Positions 18,883 through 37,586 of a stretch of DNA of 64,000 nucleotides are shown piece by piece. Under the pieces are notes generated by a model. That model saw nothing but the letters and a program-made list of their open reading frames with translations, made no database searches and was not told where the DNA came from. The DNA lies in NCBI RefSeq assembly GCF_000948985.2, contig NZ_CP059734.1, positions 186,001-250,000 of the forward strand, in the 5' to 3' direction. Position 1 is the first letter of the stretch, and every line of letters starts with the position of its first letter. The position numbers and the translations under genes are program-made. Origin of the DNA: Thalassomonas viridans. GTDB taxonomy: Bacteria > Pseudomonadota > Gammaproteobacteria > Enterobacterales > Alteromonadaceae.

Positions 18883-20364
18883 ATGTTGTTTTCTCTTAGC
18901 GATATCCAGATCAAACTAGAACAAAAAAACTGGCGCGGACAAATCAATTTTTATCCGTCAGGGCAAAGCTTCACCCTGGAAGTGATGTCCGAACATCAAA
19001 ACTACCTCAGGCAGAATCTGCAATTTGCTTTTGGCGACAAAATTATTGTTGTCACCACACCAACGCCGGAAACGGTTGCCACCCTGCTATGGCTATGGCA
19101 TCAGGGCGCGGTAGTGGTGCCGGTTAAGCATGATATGGAAGCGGATGCGATACAAAGAATCGCCGACGATTGCCACGCCCATGCCATGATCAAAGATCAA
19201 ACCATTACCGAGCTTGAGCCCTCGCCCCAGCCGCAGTTGCTGTTTCGCGAAAACAGTTCACGCCAGGTATGCGGCACAGATCTGGCGCTGCTGATTTATA
19301 CCTCCGGCAGTACCGGCAAGCCCAAGGGTATTATGCTCAGCCACAGCAATGTCATCACAGCAATGAATTCCATTGCCACTTACCTGAAAATCGACAGTGA
19401 AGAACATATTCTCGGCCTTTCCCCGCTGTCGTTTGATTACGGTCTTTACCAGTTGCTGTTTAGCCTGGCGTTTGATTGCGGCTTTACCTTGTTTGAAGAA
19501 AATTTCCATCCCATCAAAGTGATCAAGGCCCTGGACGAACAGCAGATCACCCTGCTGCCTGTGGTGCCGGCCATGGCTATTTCCCTGGCGAAGATACTGC
19601 GGGCATTAAAACGTCAGCTGCCGCATTTGCGTAAGCTCACCAATACCGGCGGCCACCTCGGTGAAACCGTGATCGACGATTTGATCAGCCTGGTGCCGCA
19701 GCTGAATGTTTATGCCATGTACGGCCTGACCGAATGTAAGCGCGCCCTGTACCTGCCGCCGGATAAAACCCAGCAAAAGCGGGGGTCGGTAGGTATTGCC
19801 ATTCCGGGCCTTGAAGCCAAGTTGTTCAACAAGGTACAAAGTGAATCCGGTCCCCATTACCAGGAAGTCGCCACCGGCGATGTCGGGGAGTTGTTTGTCC
19901 GTGGCGCTACGGTTATGCAGGGCTATTACGGCCAGGCCAATGCCGGGGCAAACCTGATCCCGGGCAATTACCGTGACGATAACTGGCTTGCCACCGGTGA
20001 TTTATTTTCCCAGGATGAAGACGGTTATTTCTATTTCAAAGGCCGTACCAAGGAACTGATCAAGCAAGCCGGTTTCTGTATCTATCCCACCGAAAGCGAG
20101 GCATTGATCGAGAAATGTCCGCTGGTGCATCTGGCCGCCATTATTCAGTCTGAAGACAAGTTTGGCGATGAGATCGCCTGCTTGTGTCTGCAGCTACACG
20201 ACAACAGTAAAGAAAACCAGGACGCATTTAAGAACTGGCTAAAAGCCAATACCGATCCGGACTATCGTCCGCGCGAAGTGCGTTTTATCGAGCAAATGCA
20301 GCTGACCGCCAACAGCAAGGTCGATAAACAGTCCCTGGTGGCCAAGTTAGAACCGGAGAAGTAA
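18883..20364 (+). CDS. AMP-forming acyl/aminoacyl ligase of a biosynthetic cluster
   Basis: A 493-residue adenylate-forming enzyme. A3 core LLIYTSGSTGKPKGIMLSH, A5 YGLTECKRALYLPP, A7 WLATGDLFSQDEDGYFYFKG, A8 GRTKELIKQAGFCIYP and the C-terminal A10 Lys in NSKVDKQSL are all present, so it should be active. It activates a carboxylic or amino acid as the adenylate and probably loads it on the free carrier protein encoded at 29414. The ligase-decarboxylase order resembles BtrJ/BtrK-type chemistry on a carrier protein, and also the ligase/decarboxylase pair of exosortase-associated loci, though no exosortase is present. It is the first gene of the operon; the next gene starts one base after its stop. 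Substrate not predictable by eye. Confidence 0.9.
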   Translation: MLFSLSDIQIKLEQKNWRGQINFYPSGQSFTLEVMSEHQNYLRQNLQFAFGDKIIVVTTPTPETVATLLWLWHQGAVVVPVKHDMEADAIQRIADDCHAHAMIKDQTITELEPSPQPQLLFRENSSRQVCGTDLALLIYTSGSTGKPKGIMLSHSNVITAMNSIATYLKIDSEEHILGLSPLSFDYGLYQLLFSLAFDCGFTLFEENFHPIKVIKALDEQQITLLPVVPAMAISLAKILRALKRQLPHLRKLTNTGGHLGETVIDDLISLVPQLNVYAMYGLTECKRALYLPPDKTQQKRGSVGIAIPGLEAKLFNKVQSESGPHYQEVATGDVGELFVRGATVMQGYYGQANAGANLIPGNYRDDNWLATGDLFSQDEDGYFYFKGRTKELIKQAGFCIYPTESEALIEKCPLVHLAAIIQSEDKFGDEIACLCLQLHDNSKENQDAFKNWLKANTDPDYRPREVRFIEQMQLTANSKVDKQSLVAKLEPEK

Positions 20365-20365
20365 A

Positions 20366-21496
20366 GTGCAACAGATCAAACAAATGCTGGATCAAAACCC
20401 GGCAGAGATTTCTACACCCTGTTATTTTTACAGCGTCAGTAAATTACAGCAAAATTTCGAGGCGTTAAAGGCGGCGCTGGGCACTCAGGTGATCGTTTCG
20501 GTTAAAGCCAACAGCAATACCGACCTGCTGATCCGTGCCAGCCATTTTCTTACCGACGGCGTCGAAGTGGCGTCGATCAAAGAGCTACAGGGCATAGTCG
20601 GCGGCGACCGTACCCGCTACGTCAACAATCCTTCCGCCGACAAGGTATTCTTGCGGGCCGCGGTTTCCGGCAAGGCCCGTTTGATTATCGACAGCCTGGC
20701 GCAGTTGGAAATCGTTGCCGAGCTGGCGCAAAAGCGCCCTCCGGCCGGTATTATCTTACGCCTGAACCCTGTGGTGCTGAAACAGTTTAACGACGCCCAC
20801 CCCAAGGTGCGCCCGGATCAGTTCGGTATGGACTGGGACACCGCCTGTATCGCCATAGATATCTGCAAGGCGAACAACCTGCCGTTGATGGGCTTTCATT
20901 TGTTTAAAGGCTCCTACAGTTTTGAGCGCAGTGCCATGGCAACCGTGGACTCGGTTAAGGGCATTATTGCCGGAATGGAAAGACGCTACGGCCAGCCGTT
21001 GTCTTTTGCCAATCTCGGCGGCGGTTTCAGTGAGCGCTGGCAGGAAAGCGAGTTTGATTTTGCCGCCTACCGGGAAAAGCTGGCTGAGCTGCCGCAGCAC
21101 ATTACCCTGGCGCACGAGTCTGGTCGCGGCCTGATGGCCAGTGCCGGCTATTTCGCCGTGCGGGTGCGCTATGTCAAACAAATCGAAAGTCAGCATTATG
21201 CCATTTGCGATGGCGGGATTGCGCAGAACTTCCTGTTGGCGCAAACGGAAAATGCCCTGCGCAAACTTAAGACCCCTGCCTTGTGGCAAGCGGAGCCAAG
21301 CGATGCCAAAGCCGCCTGCACTTTCGTCGGCAGCTCTTGTAGCAAAGACGATGTTATCGGCAAGCAGTCTGATGAGCATGTTCTGCCCAAACCTGGGGAT
21401 GTCTGCATTTTCGATCATTGCGGCGCCTATAACGCCAGCTATACGGTGGCGCCGTTTTTACAGCTGCCCCAGGCTACCACTTACATTGTCGAATAG
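20366..21496 (+). CDS. PLP-dependent (fold type III) decarboxylase
   Basis: 376 residues from GTG 20366, directly after the ligase stop. An alanine-racemase-like barrel of the Orn/DAP/Arg decarboxylase family: PLP Lys in VIVSVKANSN (K47), GFHLFKGSYS, phosphate-binding ANLGGGFSERW, HESGRGLMASAGYF, CDGGIAQNF, the C-terminal catalytic motif FVGSSCSKDDVI, and FDHCGAYNASY. All cofactor positions are present. Relatives such as BtrK act on amino acids tethered to a carrier protein, and the neighbouring ligase and the carrier protein at 29414 make that likely here. The product would be a carrier-bound amine or beta/gamma-amino acyl unit; which amino acid is unknown. Confidence 0.9.
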   Translation: MQQIKQMLDQNPAEISTPCYFYSVSKLQQNFEALKAALGTQVIVSVKANSNTDLLIRASHFLTDGVEVASIKELQGIVGGDRTRYVNNPSADKVFLRAAVSGKARLIIDSLAQLEIVAELAQKRPPAGIILRLNPVVLKQFNDAHPKVRPDQFGMDWDTACIAIDICKANNLPLMGFHLFKGSYSFERSAMATVDSVKGIIAGMERRYGQPLSFANLGGGFSERWQESEFDFAAYREKLAELPQHITLAHESGRGLMASAGYFAVRVRYVKQIESQHYAICDGGIAQNFLLAQTENALRKLKTPALWQAEPSDAKAACTFVGSSCSKDDVIGKQSDEHVLPKPGDVCIFDHCGAYNASYTVAPFLQLPQATTYIVE

Positions 21497-21504
21497 GTGA
21501 GCAC

Positions 21505-22581
21505 TTGTCTAAAAATATATCTAAAAATAATAATATCAATCAAGTCCCCGACATTTTTGGCCGCTGTATTACCTCTCACCTGGCCCGGAGCGGACAGGTG
21601 CCGTCAGCGCTTGAGGCTTTAGTGCATAAAGCTGCGGTGACCCTGATGGGCAGCGACATGATCATCGAAGACAACTTTGCCCCTATGGCAAAGTTGCAGC
21701 AGCCGCGCATCTCCCAGCCGCTGGAAAGTTTTGAGCAAACGGTTTTTATCGATGAGTTAACCGACAAGGTAAAAAGCGAAGGTTTCGGTCCGCACTTTCA
21801 TCAAATTATCGGCCTGTTTGGCTCTATCATGCTGGGCCTATGCGCCACAGAAGCGCAACAGCAGCAGGTCAACCAATGGCTGGAACAGGGCCATTTCGGT
21901 AATTTTATGATGACAGACGGCGGCGGTCCGACGCTGGCATACTGGAACTCCACTCTGACCCCGGGGGATGACGACAGCTTCACTTTAAATATCGACAAGA
22001 AGTGGTGTATCGAAGGACAAAATGTCGGCTTCGGCATGGTGGTTTGCCAGCAAAAAGGTAAGCCTTTCCCGATGACGGTGTTGCTGTCGCCGGAAAAATC
22101 AAAAGCCCTGCAACAGGAAGCCTGCGGCGGCAGTTTCCTCGATGGCAGGCTGCAGCTGGGTAATGTTAAAGGCCAGGCGCAGGTCAGTAAGGACGAGTTT
22201 CTGACCAAAGGCGGTCTGGGCAGCGTAAACCGCTTTTTAACCTTAGTGCGTCCCCGTTTTGTTAAATCGTTAATGCACCACTTGTTATGGCTGCGGGATC
22301 AGGATCGTCTGATGCTGGAGCAAGACGACCTTAGCGCCATCGACTTCCTCATCAATATGGCCAACTGGTGCACTGCCCGGGATACTTTCTCTATCCATTC
22401 GGTGGATCAGGTGCTGGCATTGAAATTTGCCAGCAACGAGTTGTTGCTTTCCCTGGTGCTTAAAGGCGCCTTGAAGCACATCGGCGATCAGCGGGATCTG
22501 CTCGGCTTTACCAAAATGGAAGGCAGTTCATACCGCTGCCTGTTTGAGGTTTACAGCAAATTCAAGCGGGGCCGCGTATGA
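21505..22581 (+). CDS. Acyl-CoA-dehydrogenase-like flavoenzyme
   Basis: 358 residues from TTG 21505, preceded by AGGTGA. Short for the family (usually ~380). The middle beta domain is recognisable (HFGNFMMTDGGGPTLAYWNS, then FTLNIDKKWCIEGQNVGFG), where FAD would bind, and the C-terminal part is helical. The usual Glu-containing catalytic segment is not obvious; KMEGSSYRCLFEVYSKFKRG near the C-terminus is the best candidate. In pyrrole pathways a related enzyme (PltE) oxidises carrier-bound prolyl groups, so a carrier-tethered substrate is plausible. Its last four bases overlap the next start (ATGA type). Confidence 0.75.
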   Translation: MSKNISKNNNINQVPDIFGRCITSHLARSGQVPSALEALVHKAAVTLMGSDMIIEDNFAPMAKLQQPRISQPLESFEQTVFIDELTDKVKSEGFGPHFHQIIGLFGSIMLGLCATEAQQQQVNQWLEQGHFGNFMMTDGGGPTLAYWNSTLTPGDDDSFTLNIDKKWCIEGQNVGFGMVVCQQKGKPFPMTVLLSPEKSKALQQEACGGSFLDGRLQLGNVKGQAQVSKDEFLTKGGLGSVNRFLTLVRPRFVKSLMHHLLWLRDQDRLMLEQDDLSAIDFLINMANWCTARDTFSIHSVDQVLALKFASNELLLSLVLKGALKHIGDQRDLLGFTKMEGSSYRCLFEVYSKFKRGRV

Positions 22582-23510
22582 GCATAGACGTTACAGAGCA
22601 GACGATGCCCGGCCTGGAGGTGAAAGGCATAGCCTTTACGCCTCTGCCGCAGCCGTTGTTTGATACCCTGCCCCCCATTGATGAAGTTATGTCTTTACTG
22701 GCGGAAAAACTGGGCAGCCAGGTGAACCAATTGATCGAGCAAACCGGTATATCCCCTGATGAATTTGCCCGGCATTTTCTCTGCTCGACCATGATAGAAA
22801 TGCCGTTCACCACCCAGTCGGTGAAATGGCAGGACATCGCCGAACAGCTGAAAACATATGGTGAGCACCAGCCGGACACTTTCGTCAATGCTTATGAATG
22901 CGCTTCTTGGGGGTATTCATTGAGGCATTATCTTAAGGTAGAAAGTCTTAAGGTAGAAAGTCTTAAGGTAGAAAGTCTTAAACAGGGGGAGCTTGAGCAA
23001 GAACAACCCAGGTACATGATAGTCAGTATCCTGGATGCCAATGTCTATAACTTTGACTTCTGGGTGTATAACGAAAACTGGGAGCATTCCGGCTTTGGCA
23101 TCACCACAGTGATTCTCGAAGTTACCGCTCCTTTAACGGATGAACTGACCATAGGTTCGGCCGTCACCCATAACAGCGTGGCGGAGTTTGCCACTGTGGT
23201 GCGCCGCACCATGATGAAAAAGCCGGGCGCTACGGTTGCGCTGCCGTTTTTCCCGGTGAATGTGCAGCAGATGTTTGAAAAGCTGCTACGCGGTCAGCCG
23301 AGCCTGCCGGACCTGCATGCCAGCTACGGCCACTGTTTCGGATCAGATCCCTGGCTGTCGCTGCTAAACCATGGCCTGAGCAACAAGCTTGAACAGCCTG
23401 AACGTTTTATGGCCTGCTCGGTGGCTCTAAACGGCTATTACACCATTGCCGACCTGATGCTGACGCCGGATACCGTATTGATTATGAACAAGGAGTGGCA
23501 GCGTGACTGA
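22578..23510 (+). CDS. Divergent KAS III-like protein (Cys kept, His position lost)
   Basis: 310 residues. It has the layout of a 3-oxoacyl-ACP synthase III. FVNAYECASWGYSL matches the KAS III nucleophile region, with Cys 108. Where the family has P-H-Q-A-N the sequence reads ALPFFPVNVQQ, with no His, and the N-T-S-A block is replaced by YGHCFGSDPWLSLL. It may therefore act as an acyl transferase or as the non-condensing partner of a pair. An exact triple repeat of LKVES (residues 119-133) is inserted after the Cys helix. It overlaps both neighbours by a few bases, so expression is coupled. This is a manual alignment; an unrelated thiolase-like fold is possible. Confidence 0.55.
   Translation: MSIDVTEQTMPGLEVKGIAFTPLPQPLFDTLPPIDEVMSLLAEKLGSQVNQLIEQTGISPDEFARHFLCSTMIEMPFTTQSVKWQDIAEQLKTYGEHQPDTFVNAYECASWGYSLRHYLKVESLKVESLKVESLKQGELEQEQPRYMIVSILDANVYNFDFWVYNENWEHSGFGITTVILEVTAPLTDELTIGSAVTHNSVAEFATVVRRTMMKKPGATVALPFFPVNVQQMFEKLLRGQPSLPDLHASYGHCFGSDPWLSLLNHGLSNKLEQPERFMACSVALNGYYTIADLMLTPDTVLIMNKEWQRD
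22932..22976 (+). repeat. Three exact tandem 15-bp units inside the KAS III-like gene
   Basis: CTTAAGGTAGAAAGT occurs three times head to tail (22932-22946, 22947-22961, 22962-22976) and a fourth unit begins (CTTAA). Each unit adds Leu-Lys-Val-Glu-Ser without changing the frame. Identity at every base implies recent slippage expansion. Confidence 0.97.
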
Positions 23511-24012
23511 ACCGACACTTACGTACCGTGGCACTCTTAAATCTATGCCGTTTCCCCACAAACCTTCGGTTGCCGAAGCCCAGATGCTGCCGCTTACCAG
23601 CGACAGCGATTTTGAGGTTTTTACCGGCTTTAGCAGTTCATCCTGCCCGGTACTGCTTAATGTCCGGGAGCATTATCAGTTGCTGTCGGATCTGGTGGAT
23701 GTTGCCCAGGAATGTTGGCCGGGGATCACTATTTTAGTGAGGATTTCCATGCCCGGTGGCATGCGTATTCCGGCCAAGCTTTTGACTGACAATATTTTAT
23801 TGCTTGAAGATGTCGCCGCCGAAGAGCAAAAGCTCGTTGCCGCGAACAAGACGTTTTTGGTGGTTGAAGACAGGTTCAGCCATGTTGAAATAGACAACAA
23901 TGACAACAGTATTTACCTGCGCCTTTATGCAAATGAAGATGGGCAAACGCTGACAACCAATGCTTTGCAGCCCCTGATTAGCTGTTTACAAGAAAGGGGA
24001 GTTGTCGGCTAA
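23503..24012 (+). CDS. Unknown protein between two ketosynthase-like genes
   Basis: 169 residues from GTG 23503, overlapping the preceding gene by 8 bases and the next by one (TAATG). No recognisable motif. It is a soluble alpha/beta-looking protein with GITILVRISMPGGMRIPAKL and a final helix (ALQPLISCLQERG). Strict overlap on both sides suggests a subunit or carrier-interacting partner of the two ketosynthase-like proteins. I do not recognise the family. Confidence 0.7.
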   Translation: MTEPTLTYRGTLKSMPFPHKPSVAEAQMLPLTSDSDFEVFTGFSSSSCPVLLNVREHYQLLSDLVDVAQECWPGITILVRISMPGGMRIPAKLLTDNILLLEDVAAEEQKLVAANKTFLVVEDRFSHVEIDNNDNSIYLRLYANEDGQTLTTNALQPLISCLQERGVVG

Positions 24013-25010
24013 TGACAGCGCCTGTGGTCATCTCACAGTATTGGGCGGTAGATGCCATAGAGCCGGTTGACGCCATAGCCGGGCTGAAAGAGCAACTGTT
24101 GGCGCTGGATGAATTGCCGGGTCATGTCACCCTGGTCAGCGCCGGTGAAGTGGGGGTATTGCGTGACCCCCTGGTGATTGAATTTCACCTTTGGCTGCAA
24201 GCGTATTGTCAGGTGACTTTTGTCAGCGCCGCCTGTACCAGCTTACATGCCGGTATTTTGGATTTTTATCACAGCGGGCTAACTGCAACCCTAGTGATCT
24301 CGCTTGAGCTGGATAAAGCATTCCAGCAGGCATGCCTTAATTCCCTGGGGATAGGCAACGAGAAGGATCAAGACGGGCTGGATGTCGTGCCTGGGCTTGG
24401 CTTTATTGCGTTAAAAAAACTGGATAAGGATAAAGCACCGGCCGCGCATGAACTGCTTATCGAAAAGTGCCAGCTGTTAAGCCAGCCGGGCGGCATGCGC
24501 GGTACCCATACGCTTATCGGCAGATTGTCTCAGCAGCTGCAGGCATTGCCAAAAGAGGTATTGCCGGTGTCGTTTGATATCTGCTCCAGCTGGGGAAAGT
24601 CTCTGCTGATGGGGCTGAATATCCGGCTGGCAGGCAAACGGCAGCCGGTGGAATGGTTAGCCAGCATTGAAAGCTGCCAGCGTCACTACTTAAGCTTAAA
24701 GCCTTTGTTTGAACTGCAGCTGTATAAAGAAAAATTAAAAGAGAACAGCTTGTTGCTGTTTACCCTGGGAGGTGGAGGCCGGGTCGGTATCCTGCAACTG
24801 GGCTGCAGCAACAGTAAGACATCAGGCGAGCCCGAACTGCCGAAGGCAAGTTTTGAACAGCAGTCGCTGGCGGACGATATCAAGGGTTATGAATTGGCGC
24901 TGAACCTGCTTGGGGATGATAAACCGGCCGGTTACCAGCAAATAAGGGATACGCTGAAATATCCTCACTCCCGTTATCGGGGGATGGATAACCACTACTT
25001 TAAATGGTAG
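24012..25010 (+). CDS. Ketosynthase-like protein with active-site Cys
   Basis: 332 residues. VTFVSAACTSLHAGILDFYH is the thiolase-superfamily nucleophile elbow (Cys 75), like the A-C-x-S/A-G/S motif of FabH/FabF enzymes, followed by the usual hydrophobic strand (ATLVISLELD). A Gly-rich strand near the end (LLFTLGGGGRVGILQLG) matches the closing core strand of the fold. The canonical second and third catalytic residues (His, Asn/His) cannot be placed with confidence; GGMRGTHTLIG may hold one. It probably pairs with the KAS III-like protein at 22578, as a condensing enzyme or an acyltransferase. A 108-base gap separates it from the flavoprotein gene. Confidence 0.6.
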   Translation: MTAPVVISQYWAVDAIEPVDAIAGLKEQLLALDELPGHVTLVSAGEVGVLRDPLVIEFHLWLQAYCQVTFVSAACTSLHAGILDFYHSGLTATLVISLELDKAFQQACLNSLGIGNEKDQDGLDVVPGLGFIALKKLDKDKAPAAHELLIEKCQLLSQPGGMRGTHTLIGRLSQQLQALPKEVLPVSFDICSSWGKSLLMGLNIRLAGKRQPVEWLASIESCQRHYLSLKPLFELQLYKEKLKENSLLLFTLGGGGRVGILQLGCSNSKTSGEPELPKASFEQQSLADDIKGYELALNLLGDDKPAGYQQIRDTLKYPHSRYRGMDNHYFKW

Positions 25011-25118: not shown

Positions 25119-27056
25119 ATGATAAACAATCAATCGATAGCACAGGAATATGACGTCGTTATAGTCGGCGCCGGTTGGGCCGGTCTGGCCCTGGCACGCC
25201 AGCTGAAAAGAGAAAATGCAGATCTGCGCATTATTCAGCTCGAAGCCAGCACCGAATTTAAAGCGAAAATCGGCGAAGCCACGGTAGAGATCACCGGCCA
25301 TTATTTTTTGAAAAAATTGGGACTGGCCAATTATTTATACCGCCACCAGCTGCCGAAAAATGCCCTGCGCTTTTTCTTTGATACCCCGGAGCACAGCCTG
25401 CCGATTGAGCAGATGAGCGAACAGGGTACGGTTTATATCCCGCCCCACCCTGCTTTCCAGCTGGAACGCGCCACCTTTGAAGCCGCCCTGATGGAGATGA
25501 ACCGCGAAGACGGCATCACTATTTTGCAAGGGGCCAGGATGACAGGCTTTGAACTGGATCATCAGGATGGTCATACGGTGAACTTCAAGTACCAGGATCA
25601 AGTCCACCAGGTGCGGGGCAAGTGGCTGGTAGATGCCAGCGGCCGCGCCGGGGTGATCACCAAGAAAATGAAAAGCCACAACCGTGAAAACGTGCCTATG
25701 CACAGCTCGGCCTGGGGACGTTTTCGCGGCGTGAAAGACTTCGATAGCGCCGGCACCCGCGCCTGGCAAGACAAGGCATCGAGCCGGTTCCTGTCCACCA
25801 ACCATTTTACCGGCCACGGCTATTGGATCTGGTTTATTCCCCTGAAAAGCGGCCTGACCAGCATAGGCATAGTCTGCGATAAAACTAAGGTGGAAAGCCC
25901 GCCGCTGAAAGAAGCAGACTTTATTGCCAAACTGAAAGAACATACCGCCATCGCCGACCTGATTGAAGATGCCGAAATGGAAGACTTTGAAGCCTGGGGC
26001 CAGCTGGCGTACCGGGGCAACGGCGTAGTCAACCGCGAGCGCTGGGGAGCCACCGGCTTTTCCGCCATGTTCCTCGATCCCCTGCTAAGCGGCGGCGGCG
26101 ACGTTATCGCCATGAGCAACGATAACCTGAGCAAGCTGATCCTGGCAGACTTTGCCAACCCGGATAAAGAGGCGGCACAAACGGCGCTGGATGAGGGCGT
26201 GCCTTATGCCAACGCCATGCTTAACTATTACTATCAGTTCCTGTACGCCCAGTTGATGAACCTCTATCCGGTGCTCGACTGCGCCCGTTTGTGCTCGCCG
26301 GTGATGGCCTATATCAATGCCACTTACTTTATTACCAATGCCTGGGATTACCTGGAAGGCAATTTTACCGACTATCCACACTTTGATAAAAACGCCTATA
26401 TCCGCCGCGGTAGTTACGCGCTGGAAATGATGATGCAGCGCCAGATACTGGATACCCTGGAGGTTTTGCGTAGCGAAGACCGTGCTTTCGACCGCAATGA
26501 CGAAGGCTTTTTTGAAACCGGCGCCGACTTGTACAAATACTACATCTACCAGATGGGACAAAAAGGCAAAGACGGCTACCGCATCGACTTTAGGGTGAAA
26601 CTTTTTACCTTGTGCTTTGCCCAGGTAACCGGCACTAAGCTGAACCTGCCCAAGTTCGGTAACCGCCGCATGGTGCAAAATGCCCTGAACCTGCCGATGA
26701 TACTGAAAAACCCGACCTTTGGCCGCGAACAGCTGCCGGCCCTGCTCAGCGCCATGAGTGAAAATCTCACCCGGGAACTGCAGCAAACCACAGAGCATAC
26801 CGTGCTGGTGGAGGTCAGCGAAACGTCTTTCCATGATGAAAAGGTCAGCCTGACCGTGGTCGGTGATACCGCAGACAGCGCCCAGCTCAAGCAGCTGCAA
26901 CGCACCGCCAATAGTATCTGGATGCACCAGCAGGAATATATAGATCAGGCCAGCTTCGTGCCCGAGTTTCTGCGTTTTGCCAGGCAGCAGCCTGAGGATT
27001 TGATGGATCCCTGTTATCCGGTCAGGTTAGAAAGCAGTGAGATGTTAACCCAGTGA
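25119..27056 (+). CDS. FAD-dependent halogenase-family flavoprotein
   Basis: 645 residues. FAD Rossmann motif VVIVGAGWAGLALARQL, then GEATVEITGHYFLKKLGL, the halogenase signature GYWIWFIPL (W-x-W-x-I-P type) and FLDPLLSGGGDVIAMSND, where flavin halogenases carry their substrate/chloride loop. Lys 80 (QLPKNALRFF) falls at the position of the catalytic Lys that makes the haloamine in PrnA-type enzymes, by eye alignment. The protein is ~100 residues longer than many halogenases, with an extra C-terminal region. It could chlorinate or brominate the carrier-bound intermediate, or be a halogenase-like oxygenase without halide activity; seawater would supply halide. A partner flavin reductase is not in the window. 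Confidence 0.8.
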   Translation: MINNQSIAQEYDVVIVGAGWAGLALARQLKRENADLRIIQLEASTEFKAKIGEATVEITGHYFLKKLGLANYLYRHQLPKNALRFFFDTPEHSLPIEQMSEQGTVYIPPHPAFQLERATFEAALMEMNREDGITILQGARMTGFELDHQDGHTVNFKYQDQVHQVRGKWLVDASGRAGVITKKMKSHNRENVPMHSSAWGRFRGVKDFDSAGTRAWQDKASSRFLSTNHFTGHGYWIWFIPLKSGLTSIGIVCDKTKVESPPLKEADFIAKLKEHTAIADLIEDAEMEDFEAWGQLAYRGNGVVNRERWGATGFSAMFLDPLLSGGGDVIAMSNDNLSKLILADFANPDKEAAQTALDEGVPYANAMLNYYYQFLYAQLMNLYPVLDCARLCSPVMAYINATYFITNAWDYLEGNFTDYPHFDKNAYIRRGSYALEMMMQRQILDTLEVLRSEDRAFDRNDEGFFETGADLYKYYIYQMGQKGKDGYRIDFRVKLFTLCFAQVTGTKLNLPKFGNRRMVQNALNLPMILKNPTFGREQLPALLSAMSENLTRELQQTTEHTVLVEVSETSFHDEKVSLTVVGDTADSAQLKQLQRTANSIWMHQQEYIDQASFVPEFLRFARQQPEDLMDPCYPVRLESSEMLTQ

Positions 27057-29774: not shown

Positions 29775-29832
29775 CGCCAGCCATTACCAGGCGGAGCTTT
29801 TTTACCCTGACACAGCCTATTTGAGTTTTGTT

Positions 29833-30558
29833 ATGAAAAAATTATTGATTTTCCTTTCATTAAACCTGCTGATCGGTAATGTTGTTGCCTGGTTTATGGG
29901 CGCGGCGCCGATTGAGTTCAAACCTGTGCCCTATTCACAGCAAGAGCAAGCGCTGATCAGCGAACTCAAAGCAGAGCTGGCAGAAAACGCCGACGATCCT
30001 GCCCTGCAGACCCAGCTGGGTTCCCTGTACTCATTGCATAACCAGCTTGACGATGCCGGGCAATTGTTAACGGCCGCCAGCGCTTCCGGCGACGATGCTA
30101 CCGCGCTGGCATGGCTGAGCGGCACCCGGGCCAAACAGGCCGGCGCCATGTTTGATCCCCTGATGGGGTTGCGCAAATTATATCTGTTGCGTTCTGCCTG
30201 CTCAGACATGGACCGCGCCGTAGCCATGGACCCGGAAAATTTTGAAGTGCGCATGGTGCGCCTGGCAACTTATGCTCCCACGGCGGTGATGAATTGTAGC
30301 CTGGAAACGGCGTTTACCGACGAAGCCTGGTTTAAGCAATATTTTGCCGCCCAGGGGGCGCTGGCGCCGCTGGAATTAAAGCTGCAATTTAACCTTACCA
30401 TGAGCATTGCCTATGCTAAGGCGGGCGGCAGCGATAATCAGCAAACAGCCAACAATTATATGGCGGAATACCAAAAGCTGTCGCGGGAAACCGAACAACC
30501 GCCGCTGGTATTGGAGCAACTGGCTGCGGCCAATAAACTCCTGACGGAGGGCTCCTGA
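29833..30558 (+). CDS. Membrane-anchored TPR-like protein of the export block
   Basis: 241 residues from ATG 29833, with an N-terminal hydrophobic anchor or signal (KKLLIFLSLNLLIGNVVAWF). The body is Ala/Leu-rich helical repeats in the TPR style (DPALQTQLGSLYSLHNQLDD). The segment DMDRAVAMDPENFEVRMVR has a close parallel in the lipoprotein encoded at 31282 (YLDRAVKNAPNNLGVRLYR), so the two are probably related partners. It is directly before, and overlapping, the ABC ATPase gene, suggesting a periplasmic accessory subunit of that exporter. Confidence 0.7.
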   Translation: MKKLLIFLSLNLLIGNVVAWFMGAAPIEFKPVPYSQQEQALISELKAELAENADDPALQTQLGSLYSLHNQLDDAGQLLTAASASGDDATALAWLSGTRAKQAGAMFDPLMGLRKLYLLRSACSDMDRAVAMDPENFEVRMVRLATYAPTAVMNCSLETAFTDEAWFKQYFAAQGALAPLELKLQFNLTMSIAYAKAGGSDNQQTANNYMAEYQKLSRETEQPPLVLEQLAAANKLLTEGS

Positions 30559-31289
30559 TGACAGTGGTCAAATTACAGGGTATCAGCCGGGCTTTTCCGC
30601 TAGGCAACAATACAGTTACCGCGCTGGATAAGCTGGACCTGACCCTGGATAAAGGCGAGTTTGTGGTGCTCAGGGGGGCCAGCGGCAGCGGTAAGAGCAC
30701 CCTGCTCAACCTGATCGGCGCCATGGACGCCCCCGACGAAGGGGAAGTGTTCATTCACGGCCAGGCGTTAAGCTTGCTGTCGGACAAAGCAAAGTCACAG
30801 CTGCGCAGCCGTTATATCGGCTTTATTTTCCAGGCGTTTAACCTGATCCCGGTATTAACCGCGCTAGAAAACGTGCAATATCCGCTGTCGCTGCAAAAGG
30901 TGCCGGACCGCGAAGCCAAAGCGCGTGCCGAAAAGGCACTGGCCCAGGTGGGGCTGGCGGATTTTGTCGACCGCCGTCCCAACCAGCTTTCGGGGGGGCA
31001 AATGCAGCGGGTAGCCATAGCCCGCGCCCTGGTGACCAATCCGGACATCATACTGGCGGACGAACCCACCGCCAATCTTGATTCAGAGACCTCAAAACAG
31101 ATCATGGACCTGCTCGGCACCCTTAACCGTGAAACCGGCGTAACCTTTTTGTTTGCCACTCATCACGACTTTGTCCTCAGCCGGGCATCAAGAATTTTGG
31201 AATTGAAAGACGGCCATATCGTGAGAGACGAACAGCCGCAGAATTTACAGCTGGTGGAGGAAGTCCACCTGGGAGAGAAACTTGGTTAA
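30558..31289 (+). CDS. ABC transporter ATPase, LolD/MacB type
   Basis: 243 residues. Walker A GASGSGKSTLLNLIGAMD, Q-loop FIFQAFNLIPVLTALENV, signature LSGGQMQRVAIARAL, Walker B IILADEPTANLDS and the switch His in FATHH are all intact. It belongs to the LolCDE/MacB/FtsE branch, which works as a mechanotransducer rather than a channel. It pairs with the FtsX-like permease at 32114, with a lipoprotein gene between them that overlaps by 8 bases. Confidence 0.95.
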   Translation: MTVVKLQGISRAFPLGNNTVTALDKLDLTLDKGEFVVLRGASGSGKSTLLNLIGAMDAPDEGEVFIHGQALSLLSDKAKSQLRSRYIGFIFQAFNLIPVLTALENVQYPLSLQKVPDREAKARAEKALAQVGLADFVDRRPNQLSGGQMQRVAIARALVTNPDIILADEPTANLDSETSKQIMDLLGTLNRETGVTFLFATHHDFVLSRASRILELKDGHIVRDEQPQNLQLVEEVHLGEKLG

Positions 31290-32109
31290 CTCGTATCTGG
31301 TAACAAGCCTGAAAAAGAAATTAAACAAGAGTGGTTGGTTATTGCTGGCAATGGCCATTGCCGGCTGTTCAGAGCAAGCACCACAGAATGAAAGCCAGGC
31401 TGCGGCAAGCGCTGAAAAAGTTAAGGCTGTTAGTGCTGTTATCCCGGCTTCGGATGAATTAGTCAAACCTACCCTGGTGCCGACCACGAATGAAGAGCGC
31501 CGGGTCTTGTTAGATTCCCTGAACATTACCGCTGACAGCCCGGAAGATAAGAAGCGTCTGGCCCTGTTTGTCCGCTATACCTATTTTGCCGACAATCCCC
31601 AGCGCCAGCTGGCAACCCTGGAGCAACTGATTGCCGAGATTGCCACCATGCGTGAAAGCCGCCCGGACGATCATGAGCTGACGGCGCTTTATGGCAGCGC
31701 CATCAGTTTGCAAACCGTGTTTTTCCTCGACAACCTCGGCAAAACCAATTTGTTGTCGAAAAAAGGCAGCCGTTATCTGGACCGCGCCGTGAAAAATGCC
31801 CCGAATAACCTGGGCGTGCGTTTATATCGCGGCATCACCTATGCCGAAATGCCGGCCTTTTTGGGCAAAGCCCGCCAGGCGGTGAAAGATTTCCAGATGA
31901 TCAAGCACGTCAGCGATGGTTTTTCTGCCGGTAACAGCAGCAGGCAGGAGAGCGAAAAGTTCGCGGCTATGGTCAACTACTACTACGCCATGGCCCTGAT
32001 TAAAAATCAGCAACAGGACCAGGGCATCAGGCTGCTGACGTCGCTGGTAGGCAAAGAGATAGTCCCCTGGTCCAAGCGGGCGGCGGCATTAAAACAAGAG
32101 CAGGGCTAA
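31282..32109 (+). CDS. TPR-like lipoprotein of the export block
   Basis: 275 residues from TTG 31282 with GGAGAG upstream. Lipoprotein signal LLLAMAIAGC with lipidated Cys in IAGCSEQ, a low-complexity linker, then helical repeats. The segment RYLDRAVKNAPNNLGVRLYR and the following TYAEMPAF mirror the protein at 29833, so the two look paralogous. It is placed between ATPase and permease genes and is likely attached to the periplasmic face as an assembly or substrate-guiding factor. Confidence 0.75.
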   Translation: MVNSYLVTSLKKKLNKSGWLLLAMAIAGCSEQAPQNESQAAASAEKVKAVSAVIPASDELVKPTLVPTTNEERRVLLDSLNITADSPEDKKRLALFVRYTYFADNPQRQLATLEQLIAEIATMRESRPDDHELTALYGSAISLQTVFFLDNLGKTNLLSKKGSRYLDRAVKNAPNNLGVRLYRGITYAEMPAFLGKARQAVKDFQMIKHVSDGFSAGNSSRQESEKFAAMVNYYYAMALIKNQQQDQGIRLLTSLVGKEIVPWSKRAAALKQEQG

Positions 32110-32113
32110 CAAT

Positions 32114-33340
32114 ATGTTGCGGTTAAAACTGGCTTTATTAAACGTATTGCGTAACGGCCGGCGCAGTTTTATTACCCTGCTGGCAATCCAGTTCGGGGTG
32201 ATCAGCCTGATCCTGATGGGGGGCTTTTTTGCCTCTATGTACGAAGGTATGCGCGAAGGCGTGATCCGCTCGCAGCTGGGGCATATCCAGATTTATAAAG
32301 AAGGCTTTAACCAGTTCGGCAGCCAGGAGCCGGAAAAATACCTGATAGATGCTAAAGTATTGCAGCAGGTTACCGGACAAATTGAAGCGCTGGAACAGGT
32401 GGAGCTGGTTACGCCGAGATTAAACCTTACCGGCCTGCTGACCGACGGCAGCAAATCGCTGGCGGTTGTGGTTGAAGGCATAGATCCGGAAAAAGAGGCG
32501 CTGCTAAGCTCGGCGGTAAAACTTACCGCAGGTGAAGACCTGTTTGAAGAAGACACGGACGGTGCGTTAATCGGCGACGGCTTATTTAAAGCGCTGAATC
32601 TGGAGGCGGGGGCATCGTTAACCCTGATGGCAACCACAGCAGACGGCAGCTTTGACGCCCGCGATGTTATCGCTACCGGGGCAATTTCTACCGGCACCCG
32701 CGAAGTGGACAACCGCTTTATGCGCATTAACCTCAAACACGCGCAGGATCTAATGTATACCCAGGGGGTGACCCGTTTGGTGGTTTTGCTTAAAGACACG
32801 CAAGATACCGAGCAGGTGATGGCGCAGTTAAGTCAGGCGTTTAAGCAGCAGGGACTGGCGCTGGAGCTGCGCAGCTGGAGCGATCTGGCGGATTACTACC
32901 ATGAAGTGGTGAACCTGTTTGACGGTATTTTTTCTATCGTCCAGATCATAGTGCTGGCTATTGTGCTGCTGGGCATAGTGAATACTATGGTAATGGCGGT
33001 GATGGAACGTACTCCGGAAATCGGCACCATACGCGCCATAGGCGGCACCCGCGGCGAAGTGATGAAACTCTTTATCAGCGAAGCCTTTATTTTGGGTTTA
33101 GTGGGCAGTGTGCTCGGGGTGATTTTTGCTGTCTTGCTGGCGCAGGGCATTACCGCAGCTGAAATTATGATGCCGACCCCGCCGGGCAGCTCTCAAACCT
33201 ATCCCATCCGTATTTTTACCGACGCGGATCTGCTGTGGAAAAACGGCATGTTCGGCTTGTTGATCGCTGTGGTATCCAGCATCTATCCGGCGGTAAAAGC
33301 CTCGCGCATGGTGATCACCCAGGCTTTGAGATTTGCCTGA
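32114..33340 (+). CDS. FtsX/LolC-type ABC permease
   Basis: 408 residues. N-terminal transmembrane helix (FITLLAIQFGVISLILMGGFF), a large periplasmic MacB-like domain from ~50 to 265, then three C-terminal helices (IFSIVQIIVLAIVLLGIVNT, FILGLVGSVLGVIFAVLLAQ, GLLIAVVSSIYPAV) with the conserved ERTPEIGTIRAIGGTRG loop that contacts the ATPase. This is the LolC/E and MacB topology: periplasmic substrates or lipids are lifted from the inner membrane. Single-gene permeases work as homodimers. Confidence 0.93.
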   Translation: MLRLKLALLNVLRNGRRSFITLLAIQFGVISLILMGGFFASMYEGMREGVIRSQLGHIQIYKEGFNQFGSQEPEKYLIDAKVLQQVTGQIEALEQVELVTPRLNLTGLLTDGSKSLAVVVEGIDPEKEALLSSAVKLTAGEDLFEEDTDGALIGDGLFKALNLEAGASLTLMATTADGSFDARDVIATGAISTGTREVDNRFMRINLKHAQDLMYTQGVTRLVVLLKDTQDTEQVMAQLSQAFKQQGLALELRSWSDLADYYHEVVNLFDGIFSIVQIIVLAIVLLGIVNTMVMAVMERTPEIGTIRAIGGTRGEVMKLFISEAFILGLVGSVLGVIFAVLLAQGITAAEIMMPTPPGSSQTYPIRIFTDADLLWKNGMFGLLIAVVSSIYPAVKASRMVITQALRFA

Positions 33341-33363: not shown

Positions 33364-34332
33364 ATGAAAAAGTTTACTAAAGTACTGCTGCCTCTTGGAC
33401 TGGTTTGGATCAGCCCTGCCCTGCTGGCAGCAGCGGAACCGACGACGGTCAATGCACAGATCACCGATGCTGTAGAAAAGCCGGCTATTGCCGAAGGAAA
33501 TGTCGAAAACAAAGTTGCAGATACAGGCAAAACAACAACAGAGCCAACGACCGGTCCGGTAACGGGGAAAGAAGCAGTTGCCGAACCAGCCGTTAAGGTG
33601 CAAGAAGGCAAGGAGCAAACTTCTGTTGTCAAAGCCGATAGCGAAGCAAAAGAGATAAATGCCGAACCTGACGCCCAGCAGCTGCTGGAATTTATCGACA
33701 GCCTGCGCGGCTATCAGGATCAAAGCTTTACCTTTGACTTGTCCAACGTCAGCTTTAAAGACAACGAGCAAAAGCACCGCAACAAACTGGCGGTAAAAGT
33801 GCTGAGTGACGCCTCCCTGGTGGAGTTTACCGCCCCGGCCCGCTCCAAAGGGCGCAAAATTTTAAAACAGGCGCAAAACATGTGGATCCGTTTTCCCGGC
33901 ACCCGCAACGTATTGCGCATATCGCCTGCCCAGCGTTTGCTGGGGGAAGCGAGCAACGGTGATGTAACCGGCACCAACTTCTCGCAGGATTACAGCGCCA
34001 GTTATGAAGGCATGGAAATGCTCGACGACAAGCAGGTGCTTAAACTTAAACTGGATGCCAAACACGATAAAGCCACCTACAAACAAGTGATGTTTTACCT
34101 GGACAGCGAAAACAAGCTGCCGCTGCGCAGCGACTTTTACGCCCGTTCCGGCAAACTGGCCAAGCAAGCTTATTACACCATGTTTAAAGAGTTTGACGGC
34201 GATCTGAAACTGCACCGCATGAAACTGGTAGACCCTATTATGGAGGGCAGCTACACCTGGATGATGTTTGACAACTATCAGAAACAGGAGCTGGACGCCG
34301 CCATTTTCCATAAAGATGCCCTGACGAGGTAG
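33364..34332 (+). CDS. LolA-like outer-membrane lipid/lipoprotein carrier
   Basis: 322 residues from ATG 33364, after GGAAAAGGAG. Signal peptide MKKFTKVLLPLGLVWISPALLAA, then a ~100-residue Glu/Thr/Ala-rich linker, then a LolA-like half-barrel matching the 'outer membrane lipoprotein-sorting protein' family (KVLSDASLVEFTAPARSKGR, ILKQAQNMWIRFPGTRNVLR, DYSASYEGMEMLDDKQVLK, LDSENKLPLRSDFYARSGKL). Such proteins ferry hydrophobic molecules across the periplasm. Its position after the ABC permease and before a barrel protein fits a Lol-like route for the cluster's product. Confidence 0.85.
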   Translation: MKKFTKVLLPLGLVWISPALLAAAEPTTVNAQITDAVEKPAIAEGNVENKVADTGKTTTEPTTGPVTGKEAVAEPAVKVQEGKEQTSVVKADSEAKEINAEPDAQQLLEFIDSLRGYQDQSFTFDLSNVSFKDNEQKHRNKLAVKVLSDASLVEFTAPARSKGRKILKQAQNMWIRFPGTRNVLRISPAQRLLGEASNGDVTGTNFSQDYSASYEGMEMLDDKQVLKLKLDAKHDKATYKQVMFYLDSENKLPLRSDFYARSGKLAKQAYYTMFKEFDGDLKLHRMKLVDPIMEGSYTWMMFDNYQKQELDAAIFHKDALTR

Positions 34333-34336: not shown

Positions 34337-35653
34337 ATGAAAGTAAAATTCTGGCCGCTGCTCGCCCTGGTTTCCGGCCCGTTAAGCCAGGTGAATGCCT
34401 ATAACCCGGAAGGGGATCCCTTTGCTGATGATCCTTTTGCCGACGACCCCTTTGTTAATGAGCCGGTGGCAGAAAACAACAAGCTTAATTCCGGGCATAG
34501 CAGCCGGGTAGAGTTTAAAAGCTACTATCAGGACAACAAGCTGCGTAATACCCACCCCTTTAATCCGGGACCGGTGAAGTTTGGTGATGCCGTTAGTCAG
34601 GTATCTCTGGATGTTACACTGGAAAGCGACTGGCAAAACCAGTGGAAAACCCGCGCCAGAGTGTATCAGCGCTATCTTGATAATGGTGTAAAAGACAGCA
34701 ATGACACTTACCTGCTTGAAGGGCTTGTGCAATGGCAAAGCGACAACCGCGATTTGGCGATAGAAGTTGGCCGCAGCAAACCCCAGTGGAGCAACGGCTA
34801 CAGCTACGACATAGCCAATATGCTGCAACCCCAGCGCAGCTTGCCCTATATCGATCAGGACAACGCGCTACAAAGCAAAGGCTGGGACATGATATCCGGA
34901 CAATATTTTTCCGGCCCCTGGTCGTTTGCCGGTTATCTGGCAGCGAGCGACAGCCGCTATCTTGATGCCGACACCGAAGCCGTATTACGCCTGGGTTATC
35001 AGCAGGACGACGCCTTTTCCTTGTTATTGCACAAAATAGACGGCCAGGATCTGTCGTACGGTGCTACCTACAGCAGCCTGCTGACCGATTCTATTACCTT
35101 CAGGGCCGAGTGGACCCGCCACGGCTACCGGCTAATGGAACCCTTGCAGGTAAATAGCTGGCAAAGAAAGCAAAAGTCTAACTACCAGCGCTTTGTGGCG
35201 GGCTCCACCTATACCGCAGCTGCGGGCTGGTCACTTACCGGCGAATATTTTTATAATGAACACGGCGCCAGCGAAAAAGAATGGCAGAGCCTGACCGCAG
35301 ATGCCGCCGCCGGTGCCAAGCGTATCAAACAAAACCAGTCGAGCGATCCGACAAGCGACTTCAACCATGCCTTTGCCGGTCTGGCATTTATGGGTCAGGG
35401 TTGGTCGCGTGAACGTTATTTGTCGTTGATGTTTATGTCGGCGGAAAGCGAAAACCTGTGGCAATTGCGCCTGAGTTCGCAAATCAGCCTGGACGACGAC
35501 AGCCAGCTGCACCGCTTTGAACTGCTTAAATCTTTTACCGGCAACCTGTCGGCGCGGCTGCAATGGCAGGTATTTAACGGCTGTGAGCTGTGCGAATACG
35601 GCCTGAATCCCAGCAAGAACAATATCCGTTTGACTGCCAGCTGGCTGTTTTAA
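34337..35653 (+). CDS. Outer-membrane beta-barrel protein of the export block
   Basis: 438 residues with a signal peptide (FWPLLALVSGPLSQVNA), a short acidic repeat (DPFADDPFADDPFVNEP) and then many alternating amphipathic strands typical of a 14-16-strand barrel (VSLDVTLESDWQNQWKTRAR, ending NNIRLTASWLF with a C-terminal Phe, the Bam recognition signature). It resembles barrel proteins that accompany LolA-like and MMPL/ABC genes in lipid-export loci. It starts four bases after the carrier gene stop. Likely the outer-membrane acceptor or exit for the product. Confidence 0.8.
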   Translation: MKVKFWPLLALVSGPLSQVNAYNPEGDPFADDPFADDPFVNEPVAENNKLNSGHSSRVEFKSYYQDNKLRNTHPFNPGPVKFGDAVSQVSLDVTLESDWQNQWKTRARVYQRYLDNGVKDSNDTYLLEGLVQWQSDNRDLAIEVGRSKPQWSNGYSYDIANMLQPQRSLPYIDQDNALQSKGWDMISGQYFSGPWSFAGYLAASDSRYLDADTEAVLRLGYQQDDAFSLLLHKIDGQDLSYGATYSSLLTDSITFRAEWTRHGYRLMEPLQVNSWQRKQKSNYQRFVAGSTYTAAAGWSLTGEYFYNEHGASEKEWQSLTADAAAGAKRIKQNQSSDPTSDFNHAFAGLAFMGQGWSRERYLSLMFMSAESENLWQLRLSSQISLDDDSQLHRFELLKSFTGNLSARLQWQVFNGCELCEYGLNPSKNNIRLTASWLF

Positions 35654-35699
35654 GCCGCCCCGGTAATAACTAAAAAATATAAAAACAAAGAGATAAAAG

Positions 35700-37586
35700 A
35701 TGGATTTTAACAATAACTACCGTGTTGATCTGCGTGACCTTAATTTCCTGTTGTGGGAGCAGTTCGACATAGAAAACACTCTGCTTGACCCGAGCATAAA
35801 CGGCGAATACAGCAAAGACTTTATCCAGCAGCTGTTATTTCACGCCCGTGATTTCGCCTATAACGAGCTGGGCGCCAACTACCAGAGAGCCGACCGTGAA
35901 GGCTGTAAATTGCAGGAAGACGGCTCGGTGCAACTGCCGTCGAAATACCCGGAAATCTGGCAAAAATACACAGACGCGCAATGGGGCCGATTAAGCTCGC
36001 CGCCGAAATATGACGGCCTGGGCTCTCCCTACATGGTGGCGCAAATGATCTATGAAATCTTCCAGGGGGCCGATGCCTCCTTTATGGTGTATCCGGGATT
36101 TTGCAGTCCGGCCATGCACCTGATTGAAAGGTTTGCTACCGCAGATGTTAAAGAACGCTTCAGCCATAAACTGGCCACTAACGAATGGGCCGCCTGCTTA
36201 TGTATGACCGAGCCTCAGGCTGGCAGCGACGTAGGTGCGATAACCACCAAAGCCATTCCGCAGGATGACGGCAGCTACCATATTGAAGGCGGCAAAATAT
36301 TTATCTCAGGCGGTATGCACGATTTAACCGACAACATCGTTTACATGCTGCTGGCCCGGGTGGAAGGCGCCCGTTCCGGCACCACGGGTTTGTCATGTTT
36401 TGTTGTGCCCCGCTTTGATATACGGGAAGATGGCTCGCTGGTGGATAACCATGTGCGCTGCATCCGCCTGGAAGATAAAATGGGCATCCACGGCTGTGCT
36501 ACCGCCCAACTGAGTTTTGGCGACAACGGCCCGTGTAAAGCCTATTTGCTCGGCGAGCGGGAAAACATAGGTTTGCGCCAGCTGTCTACCATGATGCACA
36601 TGGCGCGGATCTCAACCGGTATTTATGCACTAGGTTTGGCCGGGCGCGCCTATATGAGCGCTGCCGAATATGCTGCCGAACGTATACAGGGCACCAGCTT
36701 TAAAGAAGCCTTTAACCCCAGGGCGGAAAAAGTCTCGATTATGGCCCACGTAGACGTGCGCCGCATGCTGCTGGAAATGAAGTCTAAGGTAGAAGGTTGC
36801 CGGGCACTGATCCACAAACTGACTTTCCATCAAAGCTGGGTGACTAACCTGCAAACTTTGCAAGAGATGCACCCGGAAAAAGTCGATGAATACAAGGCAC
36901 AGAGCAAACACCACGAATCCCTGGTAAGCCTGCTGACCCCGATAGTAAAAGCCTACACCTCAGATCAGGCATGGCGGGTAGCCGAACTGGCGATACAAGT
37001 TTATGGCGGACACGGTTACGTAAAAGATCACCCGGTAGAGCAAGTAGCGCGGGACGTGAAGATATTGTCAATTTGGGAAGGCACCTCCTTTATCCAATCA
37101 GCCGACCTGATGAAAGACAAACTGGGCATGGGCCTGACCTCAAAACTGCTGAGCATTTATCAGGAACAGGTAGAAGCCAGCATAGCCCGTAATCGCGATG
37201 CCGGTGTGCTGCTGGCAGAAACCGATGCTTTGGAAGCGTCACTGGCAACCTTTATTGAAACCCATGCTCTGATGGGCCGCTGGGTGAAAGAGCGCAAAGT
37301 CGAACTGATTTTTTCGGTATCCACCCGCTTTTTGGAAATGATGGCGGAAGTGACCTTGTCATGGCTACTGCTGGACGGTGCGGTAATCGCAGCGCAGAAG
37401 TTGGAAAACCTTGAAGACCAGCAAGATGAAGCTTTCTATCAAGGCAAGATTACCGCTGCCCGGTTCTACATCAACAACATACTGCCGGGTGTTAAATCCA
37501 AAGCTGAAATTATTGCCAAAGAAGATAATTCCGCCCTTGATGCGAGCGGAGGTATTTTTTTGCAGCGTACTGATTTGTACGGTTAA
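35700..37586 (+). CDS. Acyl-CoA dehydrogenase with C-terminal extension
   Basis: 628 residues, the long FadE-like type. The FAD domain shows CLCMTEPQAGSDVGAITTKA and the beta-domain YHIEGGKIFISGG; the C-terminal helices contain the catalytic Glu in KILSIWEGTSFIQ and VYGGHGYVKDHPVEQVARD. The last ~110 residues match the extra C-terminal domain of long-chain dehydrogenases (ARFYINNILPGVKSKAEII). It probably introduces a double bond in the acyl chain of the product or supplies an enoyl precursor. It is the last gene of the unit, before a strong terminator. Confidence 0.92.
   Translation: MDFNNNYRVDLRDLNFLLWEQFDIENTLLDPSINGEYSKDFIQQLLFHARDFAYNELGANYQRADREGCKLQEDGSVQLPSKYPEIWQKYTDAQWGRLSSPPKYDGLGSPYMVAQMIYEIFQGADASFMVYPGFCSPAMHLIERFATADVKERFSHKLATNEWAACLCMTEPQAGSDVGAITTKAIPQDDGSYHIEGGKIFISGGMHDLTDNIVYMLLARVEGARSGTTGLSCFVVPRFDIREDGSLVDNHVRCIRLEDKMGIHGCATAQLSFGDNGPCKAYLLGERENIGLRQLSTMMHMARISTGIYALGLAGRAYMSAAEYAAERIQGTSFKEAFNPRAEKVSIMAHVDVRRMLLEMKSKVEGCRALIHKLTFHQSWVTNLQTLQEMHPEKVDEYKAQSKHHESLVSLLTPIVKAYTSDQAWRVAELAIQVYGGHGYVKDHPVEQVARDVKILSIWEGTSFIQSADLMKDKLGMGLTSKLLSIYQEQVEASIARNRDAGVLLAETDALEASLATFIETHALMGRWVKERKVELIFSVSTRFLEMMAEVTLSWLLLDGAVIAAQKLENLEDQQDEAFYQGKITAARFYINNILPGVKSKAEIIAKEDNSALDASGGIFLQRTDLYG

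Follow-up and report, generated by a model that had tools for sequence, protein, structure and literature searches.

What could be made and exported by a run of genes that joins a ligase, a decarboxylase, dehydrogenase-like enzymes, a halogenase-family flavoprotein, and a single carrier protein to a Lol-like transport set? The question is raised by 17 genes at positions 18883-37586 (+ strand) of a 64,000-nucleotide stretch of Thalassomonas viridans DNA, here called the window and taken as positions 186001-250000 of the chromid pTvir. The answer we favor, with a probability of roughly 0.6 and judged from sequence, is that the operon would encode an assembly system that uses one carrier, has no condensation domains, and is of the afc/bol type, named after the clusters for the Burkholderia antifungal AFC-BC11 and for bolagladin. 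Its most likely product is an N-capped, carrier-built dehydro-β-alanine amide, tailored by the flavoprotein and exported. Homology and key residues back the dehydro-β-alanine core of this proposal; each reaction in T. viridans, the chain length, the cap, halogenation, and export of the product are inferred.

The 17 open reading frames are, in order:

18883-20364, +: lig, a stand-alone adenylation enzyme of the VinN/AfcQ/BolO type (PF00501, 184.5 bits)
20366-21496, +: dec, an AfcP/BtrK-like pyridoxal-phosphate decarboxylase (PF02784, 59.3 bits)
21505-22581, +: acd1, an acyl-CoA-dehydrogenase-like AfcJ homologue (36-37% identity to the Burkholderia afc gene)
22578-23510, +: ksA, an AfcL-type (KAS III-like) acyltransferase homologue (hhalign probability 99.9 to AfcL)
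23503-24012, +: h169, an AfcM-like protein (hhalign E 2.8e-5, probability 74)
24012-25010, +: ksB, a second ketosynthase (KS)-like protein (AACTS and GGGGR signatures)
25119-27056, +: hal, a flavin-dependent halogenase-family protein with a long C-terminal extension (PF04820, 57.4 bits, above cut-off)
27053-28042, +: abh, an alpha/beta hydrolase (PF12146, PF00561)
28039-29325, +: asn, a degenerate asparagine-synthetase-like protein (GATase_7 below cut-off)
29414-29665, +: acp, the sole carrier protein of the set, an AfcK homologue with Ser38 (PF00550, 40.6 bits)
29821-30558, +: tpr1, a TPR-like protein with a hydrophobic N-terminal stretch (TPR_19 below cut-off)
30558-31289, +: lolD, a LolD-like ATPase (TIGR02211, 229.8 bits, under the cut-off of 307.75)
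31282-32109, +: lip2, a probable lipoprotein (lipobox in four of the five orthologues viewed)
32114-33340, +: ftsX, a single-copy FtsX/LolC-E-like permease (PF02687, PF12704)
33364-34332, +: lolA, a LolA-like periplasmic carrier (PF17131, 128.5 bits)
34337-35653, +: omp, a putative outer-membrane barrel with a signal-like start
35700-37586, +: acd2, an AfcE-type dehydrogenase of 628 aa (PF12806, 92.4 bits, and relatives)

These genes are nearly contiguous, with junctions of -8 to +155 bp, overlaps at seven of the 16 junctions, and no + strand terminator-like site listed in the intergenic gaps. The initial annotation had described seventeen same-strand genes devoid of any module of a non-ribosomal peptide synthetase (NRPS) or polyketide synthase (PKS), and both statements hold, as does its view that the operon joins carrier-dependent biosynthesis to Lol-like export. 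A Pfam gathering score naming the protein is reached by nine of the 17 (the ligase, decarboxylase, flavoprotein, hydrolase, carrier, ABC ATPase, FtsX permease, LolA-like protein, and 628-aa acyl-CoA dehydrogenase), matches to asn and tpr1 (GATase_7 and TPR) stay below cut-off, and the six proteins starting at 21505, 22578, 23503, 24012, 31282, and 34337 match no Pfam family at E <= 0.01.

The annotation had recognized no characterized pathway with this make-up, a statement that does not survive comparison with the afc cluster, where a homologous core is known, and with the related bol cluster. AFC-BC11, solved in 2025, is made by an uncommon nonribosomal route without condensation domains from a cluster called conserved in various Burkholderia strains (PMC12186527). 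According to that source, AfcQ is the enzyme that activates L-Asp, which AfcP then decarboxylates on AfcK in a cycle that repeats, AfcA adds a fatty acid, and AfcL moves the chain, the steps of these five proteins having been demonstrated in vitro; desaturation by AfcE is expected rather than demonstrated there, its authors supposing that an N-acylated substrate is needed. It further describes loss of the product on deletion of afcJ, L, M, N, O, or P and its retention without afcI, and names BolQ as an AfcE homologue. For bolagladin, the same starting steps are proposed, and a bolQ deletion gives β-alanine instead of dehydro-β-alanine (PMC7756342).

Ten of the 17 proteins have afc homologues. 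Nine (lig, dec, acd1, ksA, acp, acd2, lolD, ftsX, and lolA) are matched in both Burkholderia loci by tblastn at E <= 1e-11, and also by phmmer, and h169 is matched by profile at E 2.8e-5. The B. arboris genes were recognized as afc by AfcL Cys111 and AfcK Ser40 at the exact positions given in PMC12186527, by the correct spacing of Arg311 and Lys503 in AfcQ relative to the same source, and by AfcE adjoining a citrate synthase, as BCAS0208 and BCAS0207 do in PMC6301696; the letters J and M were assigned by position, so these two names are our inference. Searching the window proteins against all B. arboris frames of at least 100 aa returned nothing further at E <= 10, save paralogous hits of lig and lolD, and the afc cap genes are thus not among the 17. 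The main reason for our reading is that the seven shared biosynthesis genes include those demonstrated or expected to make and move the dehydro-β-alanine chain, that genes for the lipid cap are lacking, and that the set is kept in three families. In B. cenocepacia CMCC(B)23006, the AfcQ-like gene (L060, about 14954-16542) is split over two overlapping frames, unlike in B. arboris, owing to either sequencing error or decay.

Conservation was followed through a comparison set of genomes labeled with G-numbers, G000 being T. viridans itself. Among 14 loci compared, ten hold all 17 genes (G000, G001, G002, G031, G042, G081, G664, G765, G914, and G1011), which argues that the gene set is not due to chance; these genomes represent four genera of one family and two further families. 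Gene order is identical in nine of the ten, G1011 having acd2 and hal upstream of lig. G074 retains 11 genes and an Algicola metagenome-assembled genome (MAG) seven, one partial in each, and both loci reach contig or record ends. Matches to hal at 70% identity or more occur in 7/196 genomes, T. viridans included, and the acd1 profile finds matches in 11/395 genomes of the family and, when widened, in 3/295 of the order, with no acd1 match in the same-genus genome G003. Class-level draws returned T. viridans only, for acd1 (1/321) as for ksA (1/369), the family, order, and class draws overlapping. One contig scan, with a single protein rather than an alignment as query, found two loci. Across 72,556 plasmid records, tblastn with acd1 (E <= 1e-5) and with ksA (E <= 0.01) gave just two matches each, in every case the Burkholderia afc loci. 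Among the open-licence papers listed on Thalassomonas gene clusters, bolagladin or dehydro-β-alanine, AFC-BC11, and the T. viridans chromid, none has a title or displayed abstract on this cluster, and dehydro-β-alanine together with halogenases drew no paper.

A third arrangement is found in G740 and G791, which share 11 genes with the set (lig, dec, acd1, ksA, h169, the carrier, lolD, lip2, ftsX, lolA, and acd2) and in which hal, asn, ksB, and tpr1 found no counterpart; a hydrolase in G740 is a weak partial match outside the set. The rest of the G740 locus encodes type II PKS functions, comprising a fused protein resembling KS and chain-length factor, a ketoreductase, and FabA-like and 4HBT proteins, together with an additional carrier, another ksA, and an ABC-2 transporter, of which both the ATPase and the permease are matched by homologous proteins of the B. 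arboris afc locus. G791 encodes 27/27 of the G740 proteins tested, at 88-100% identity. Within G740:C27:160000-199999, an AsnB-like gene whose product has an SGGIDS loop comes after the PKS cassette, as do genes for a phosphopantetheinyl transferase and a LuxI-type autoinducer synthase.

For the first steps, residues of lig and dec were compared; several of the residue comparisons (lig, ksA, acp, dec, acd1, acd2, and hal) took five to eight of the available orthologues. The best PDB match of lig is 3wvn, which we take to be the VinN structure, and its residue spacing of 101 and 32 agrees with VinN Asp230/Ser299/Arg331. Equivalents of Asp230 (in SFDYGLY) and Arg331 (in TECKR or TESKR) are invariant in 13/13 lig proteins, so that the VinN-type Arg for activation of the Asp side chain is present, and the Ser299 position is Thr, as in AfcQ. 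Hence lig is predicted to activate L-Asp via its side-chain carboxylate. A search of the genome for glutamate mutase (PF06368) gave no match, which favors Asp over 3-methyl-Asp; the control detected this family in just 1/14 genomes and below cut-off, so the absence is moderate evidence, on which 3-methylaspartate was down-weighted as a substrate. The decarboxylase, predicted to convert isoaspartyl-S-carrier into β-alanyl-S-carrier, has its best PDB matches in 6knh and BtrK (2j66/7ru7), shares the SxKAN/SxKSN and C-x-x-x-D motifs with AfcP, and stands out as the top genome-wide match of AfcP (243 vs 53 bits). As a separate observation, six exosortase-A-associated ligases scoring above the TIGR03098 cut-off all carry equivalents of the three VinN residues, and AfcQ nests within these six in a tree; a TIGR03098 ligase and its partner decarboxylase may thus produce a β-alanyl-carrier.

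The carrier is 55% identical to its afc counterpart and has GELGxDSLNIVE in common with AfcK (Ser40), and ksA presents Cys108/His252/Asp257, AfcL Cys111 being aligned with Cys108; the operon thus appears to possess both the sole carrier and the AfcL-type acyltransferase with Cys/His/Asp that characterize afc. A profile search of PDB sequences gave ksA no meaningful match. Inside ksA, a perfect 15-bp tandem repeat of 3.4 copies (22931-22981) adds in-frame LKVES units that are lacking in the six other ksA proteins aligned. The neighboring h169, a small gene whose likeness to AfcM the initial annotation missed, finds its profile partner in a 206-aa afc gene at the same position, directly after AfcL; its model reaches a predicted local distance difference test score (pLDDT) of 71.5, and a fold search found nothing at E <= 0.001, the top-ranked PksG (E 0.2) being disregarded. 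Two ketosynthase-like proteins had been proposed, a description that stands for ksB alone, ksA being better described as an AfcL-type acyltransferase homologue. AACTS and GGGGR, the sole basis for the KS-like identity of ksB, are kept in 11/11 orthologues, and ksB matched neither AfcL, AfcO, or AfcR by profile nor PDB sequences, so that no afc homologue was detected and an AfcO/AfcR identity is unsupported. In that comparison, AfcR was the 400-residue tail of an open frame rather than a defined protein, and the Algicola MAG row was left out of the ksA and ksB profiles.

Desaturation of the chain points to acd2, which is predicted to convert β-alanyl into dehydro-β-alanyl. AfcE as query against the 7.95-Mb genome retrieves acd2 at the top (519 vs 258 bits), and S(I/L)WEGT is common to both proteins. 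All six aligned acd1-type sequences, AfcJ included, contain KMEGSSYRC or RMEGSSYRC, and a profile search of PDB sequences gave acd1 no meaningful match. The annotation's carrier-built, possibly halogenated amino-lipid or amide is retained as a possibly halogenated amide and not as a generic amino-lipid, the afc homology indicating passage from isoaspartyl through β-alanyl to dehydro-β-alanyl.

Taken together, lig would adenylate L-Asp on its side-chain carboxylate and load the carrier, and dec would strip the alpha-carboxylate to leave β-alanyl-S-carrier, possibly in repeated rounds that give a short β-alanyl chain. The N-terminus would be capped from some acyl donor, with ksB as a candidate, after which acd2, perhaps with acd1, would oxidize the chain to dehydro-β-alanine. 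ksA would transfer the chain via Cys108 to an acceptor, hal might halogenate or oxidize the electron-rich enamide or the cap, abh, a candidate release enzyme, may free the product, and the Lol-like ATPase, permease, LolA-like protein, and barrel could convey it towards the outer membrane. As for asn, the SGGxD(S/T) ATP loop is missing in 11/11 orthologues, which agrees with its earlier description as degenerate.

In the export line, the ATPase is 42% and the permease 31% identical to the afc proteins, the permease scoring 128.5 bits against the curated LolC/E score of 362.45. The lolA start at 33364 is more likely than one at 33235, AGGAG lying eight bases ahead of its ATG, and lip2 has a homologue in the type II PKS variant. 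No Pfam or NCBIfam family matches omp, and a barely similar counterpart (blastp E 0.029) adjoins acd2 in the PKS variant.

Several observations weigh against this interpretation. Identities to the afc proteins are just 22-55%, and the AlphaFold model of ksA is unusable (pLDDT 31). A homologue of AfcA, the FAAL that supplies the afc N-cap, is lacking among the 17, as is the citrate synthase AfcS, the set having one AMP-binding protein and the rest of the genome not having been searched for either; FAAL and citrate synthase genes are both in the B. arboris afc locus. A reverse search with AfcQ ranks lig third of 80 (151 bits), the highest-scoring match (169 bits) being one domain within an open frame of 3271 aa, and an unrooted tree places lig and AfcQ in separate lineages, for which reasons we claim the same chemistry for lig and not orthology to AfcQ. 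Regarding export, the afc outer-membrane protein AfcI is described as dispensable for production (PMC12186527), and the ABC transporter gene BCAS0204 as dispensable for antifungal activity (PMC6301696). Finally, 10/10 full-length hal proteins have GF(A/S)(A/S) where PltA and CmlS have GDA, which renders halogenation uncertain.

This last point bears on a sub-version of the same scheme, overlapping with it in probability, in which the β-alanyl/dehydro-β-alanyl core is made as proposed and the flavoprotein acts as a hydroxylase or some different oxidase, giving a product without halogen. We regard it as a serious possibility, somewhat short of even odds: the monooxygenase QhpG is the next NCBIfam match of hal after CmlS, both under cut-off and limited to about residues 12-333, whereas WxWxIP and the catalytic Lys, signatures of flavin-dependent halogenases, are kept (Lys80 in PKN) in the same ten proteins, and the best PDB profile matches are the named halogenases PltA, CmlS, and ChlB4. 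No hal homologue was detected at E <= 10 among B. arboris locus frames of at least 100 aa, and the 20 kb taken around each of the distant relatives (32-37% identity) in G014, G021, and G066 contained no further gene of the cluster. Fatty acyl thioesters are the usual substrates of acyl-CoA dehydrogenases, so the two dehydrogenase-like proteins could instead work on a fatty cap and leave a saturated β-alanyl amino-lipid or amide, a reading helped by the expected rather than demonstrated role of AfcE and by AfcJ having no assigned role in PMC12186527. We find it unlikely, since acd2 is the AfcE match by the wide margin noted above and loss of BolQ swaps dehydro-β-alanine for β-alanine (PMC7756342).

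Far less probable still is a surface modification of the exosortase/exopolysaccharide type, suggested by the resemblance of the ligase, decarboxylase, hydrolase, and Asn-synthetase-like proteins to exosortase-A-associated families. TIGR03098 is indeed the best NCBIfam match of lig, but at 264.1 bits against a curated 592.35, and the accompanying weak matches reach 120 of 478 (TIGR03099), 20 of 203 (TIGR03101), and 18 of 817 bits (TIGR03108); moreover, the only exosortase match of the genome sits on the other contig, and acd1, ksA, and acd2 indicate afc instead.

The afc/bol-type assembly system thus remains our preferred explanation, and the locus is probably a variant of afc-type machinery joined to a halogenase-like enzyme and an export line, its product possibly halogenated. 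A bolder and quite tentative extension, with the odds against it, is that lig, dec, the carrier, acd1, acd2, ksA, h169, and the Lol-like export genes would form a portable dehydro-β-alanine cassette that assembles amides without condensation domains and exists in at least three capping versions: fatty-acid/citrate in Burkholderia, type II polyketide in G740/G791, and halogenase-bearing here, the last leading to α-halo-dehydro-β-alanine amides sent to the outer membrane. We know of no precedent for such a residue type.

The presence of the backbone genes in marine Gammaproteobacteria, alongside two further gene complements, makes it easier to tell the requirements of the dehydro-β-alanine chain from those of the lipid; it assigns acd1/AfcJ and h169/AfcM to the core and offers targets for new, possibly halogenated compounds. 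PMC9860883 gives 6,726,747 bp for T. viridans and 1,218,661 bp for pTvir, describes T. haliotis as without the chromid, and reports spontaneous loss of pTvir in culture, which may make a matched pair of strains obtainable for a direct metabolomic test.

Around the operon, the window contains:

10961-13948, upstream: a large subtilase with PA and fibronectin-like domains
17434-18351, upstream: a GDSL hydrolase of 305 aa, with a terminator-like site at the end of its gene
44100-45614, downstream: an IS66-family transposase

A GDSL hydrolase match also lies beside the gene set in G001, G002, G042, G664, G765, and the Algicola MAG, and none lies beside it in G031. Elsewhere on the contig, at about 315000-585000, very long open frames hold dozens of adenylation-domain matches, in accord with the 300-kb secondary-metabolite region mentioned for T. 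viridans in PMC9860883.

Compared with known systems, the export genes resemble LolCDE/LolA lipoprotein export in their LolD-like ATPase, FtsX-fold permease, and LolA-like carrier, and differ in having one permease gene, scores under the curated Lol cut-offs, and a pairing both with genes for biosynthesis and with one for a putative barrel. The vicenistatin enzymes VinN/VinO/VinL, of which VinN only was compared, share a β-carboxylate-activating ligase with the same Asp/Arg recognition residues and decarboxylation on a stand-alone carrier, whereas they feed a modular PKS and use 3-methylaspartate. Bolagladin biosynthesis (BolO/BolN/BolC/BolQ), compared by its published description rather than by sequence, likewise loads, decarboxylates, and dehydrogenates Asp for one dehydro-β-alanine, but within a cluster that uses a modular NRPS. 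The afc cluster differs from the T. viridans operon in gene order and in possessing AfcA and AfcS, which have no homologue among the 17, and AfcN and AfcO, for which none was detected; the halogenase-family protein, ksB, the hydrolase, the degenerate Asn-synthetase-like protein, tpr1, and lip2 are added here. Common to both are homologues of AfcE, J, K, L, M, and P and a counterpart of AfcQ, three Lol-like export proteins (ATPase, permease, and LolA), the use of one carrier without any condensation domain, and a location on replicons of 1.1-1.3 Mb both here and in the two Burkholderia records.

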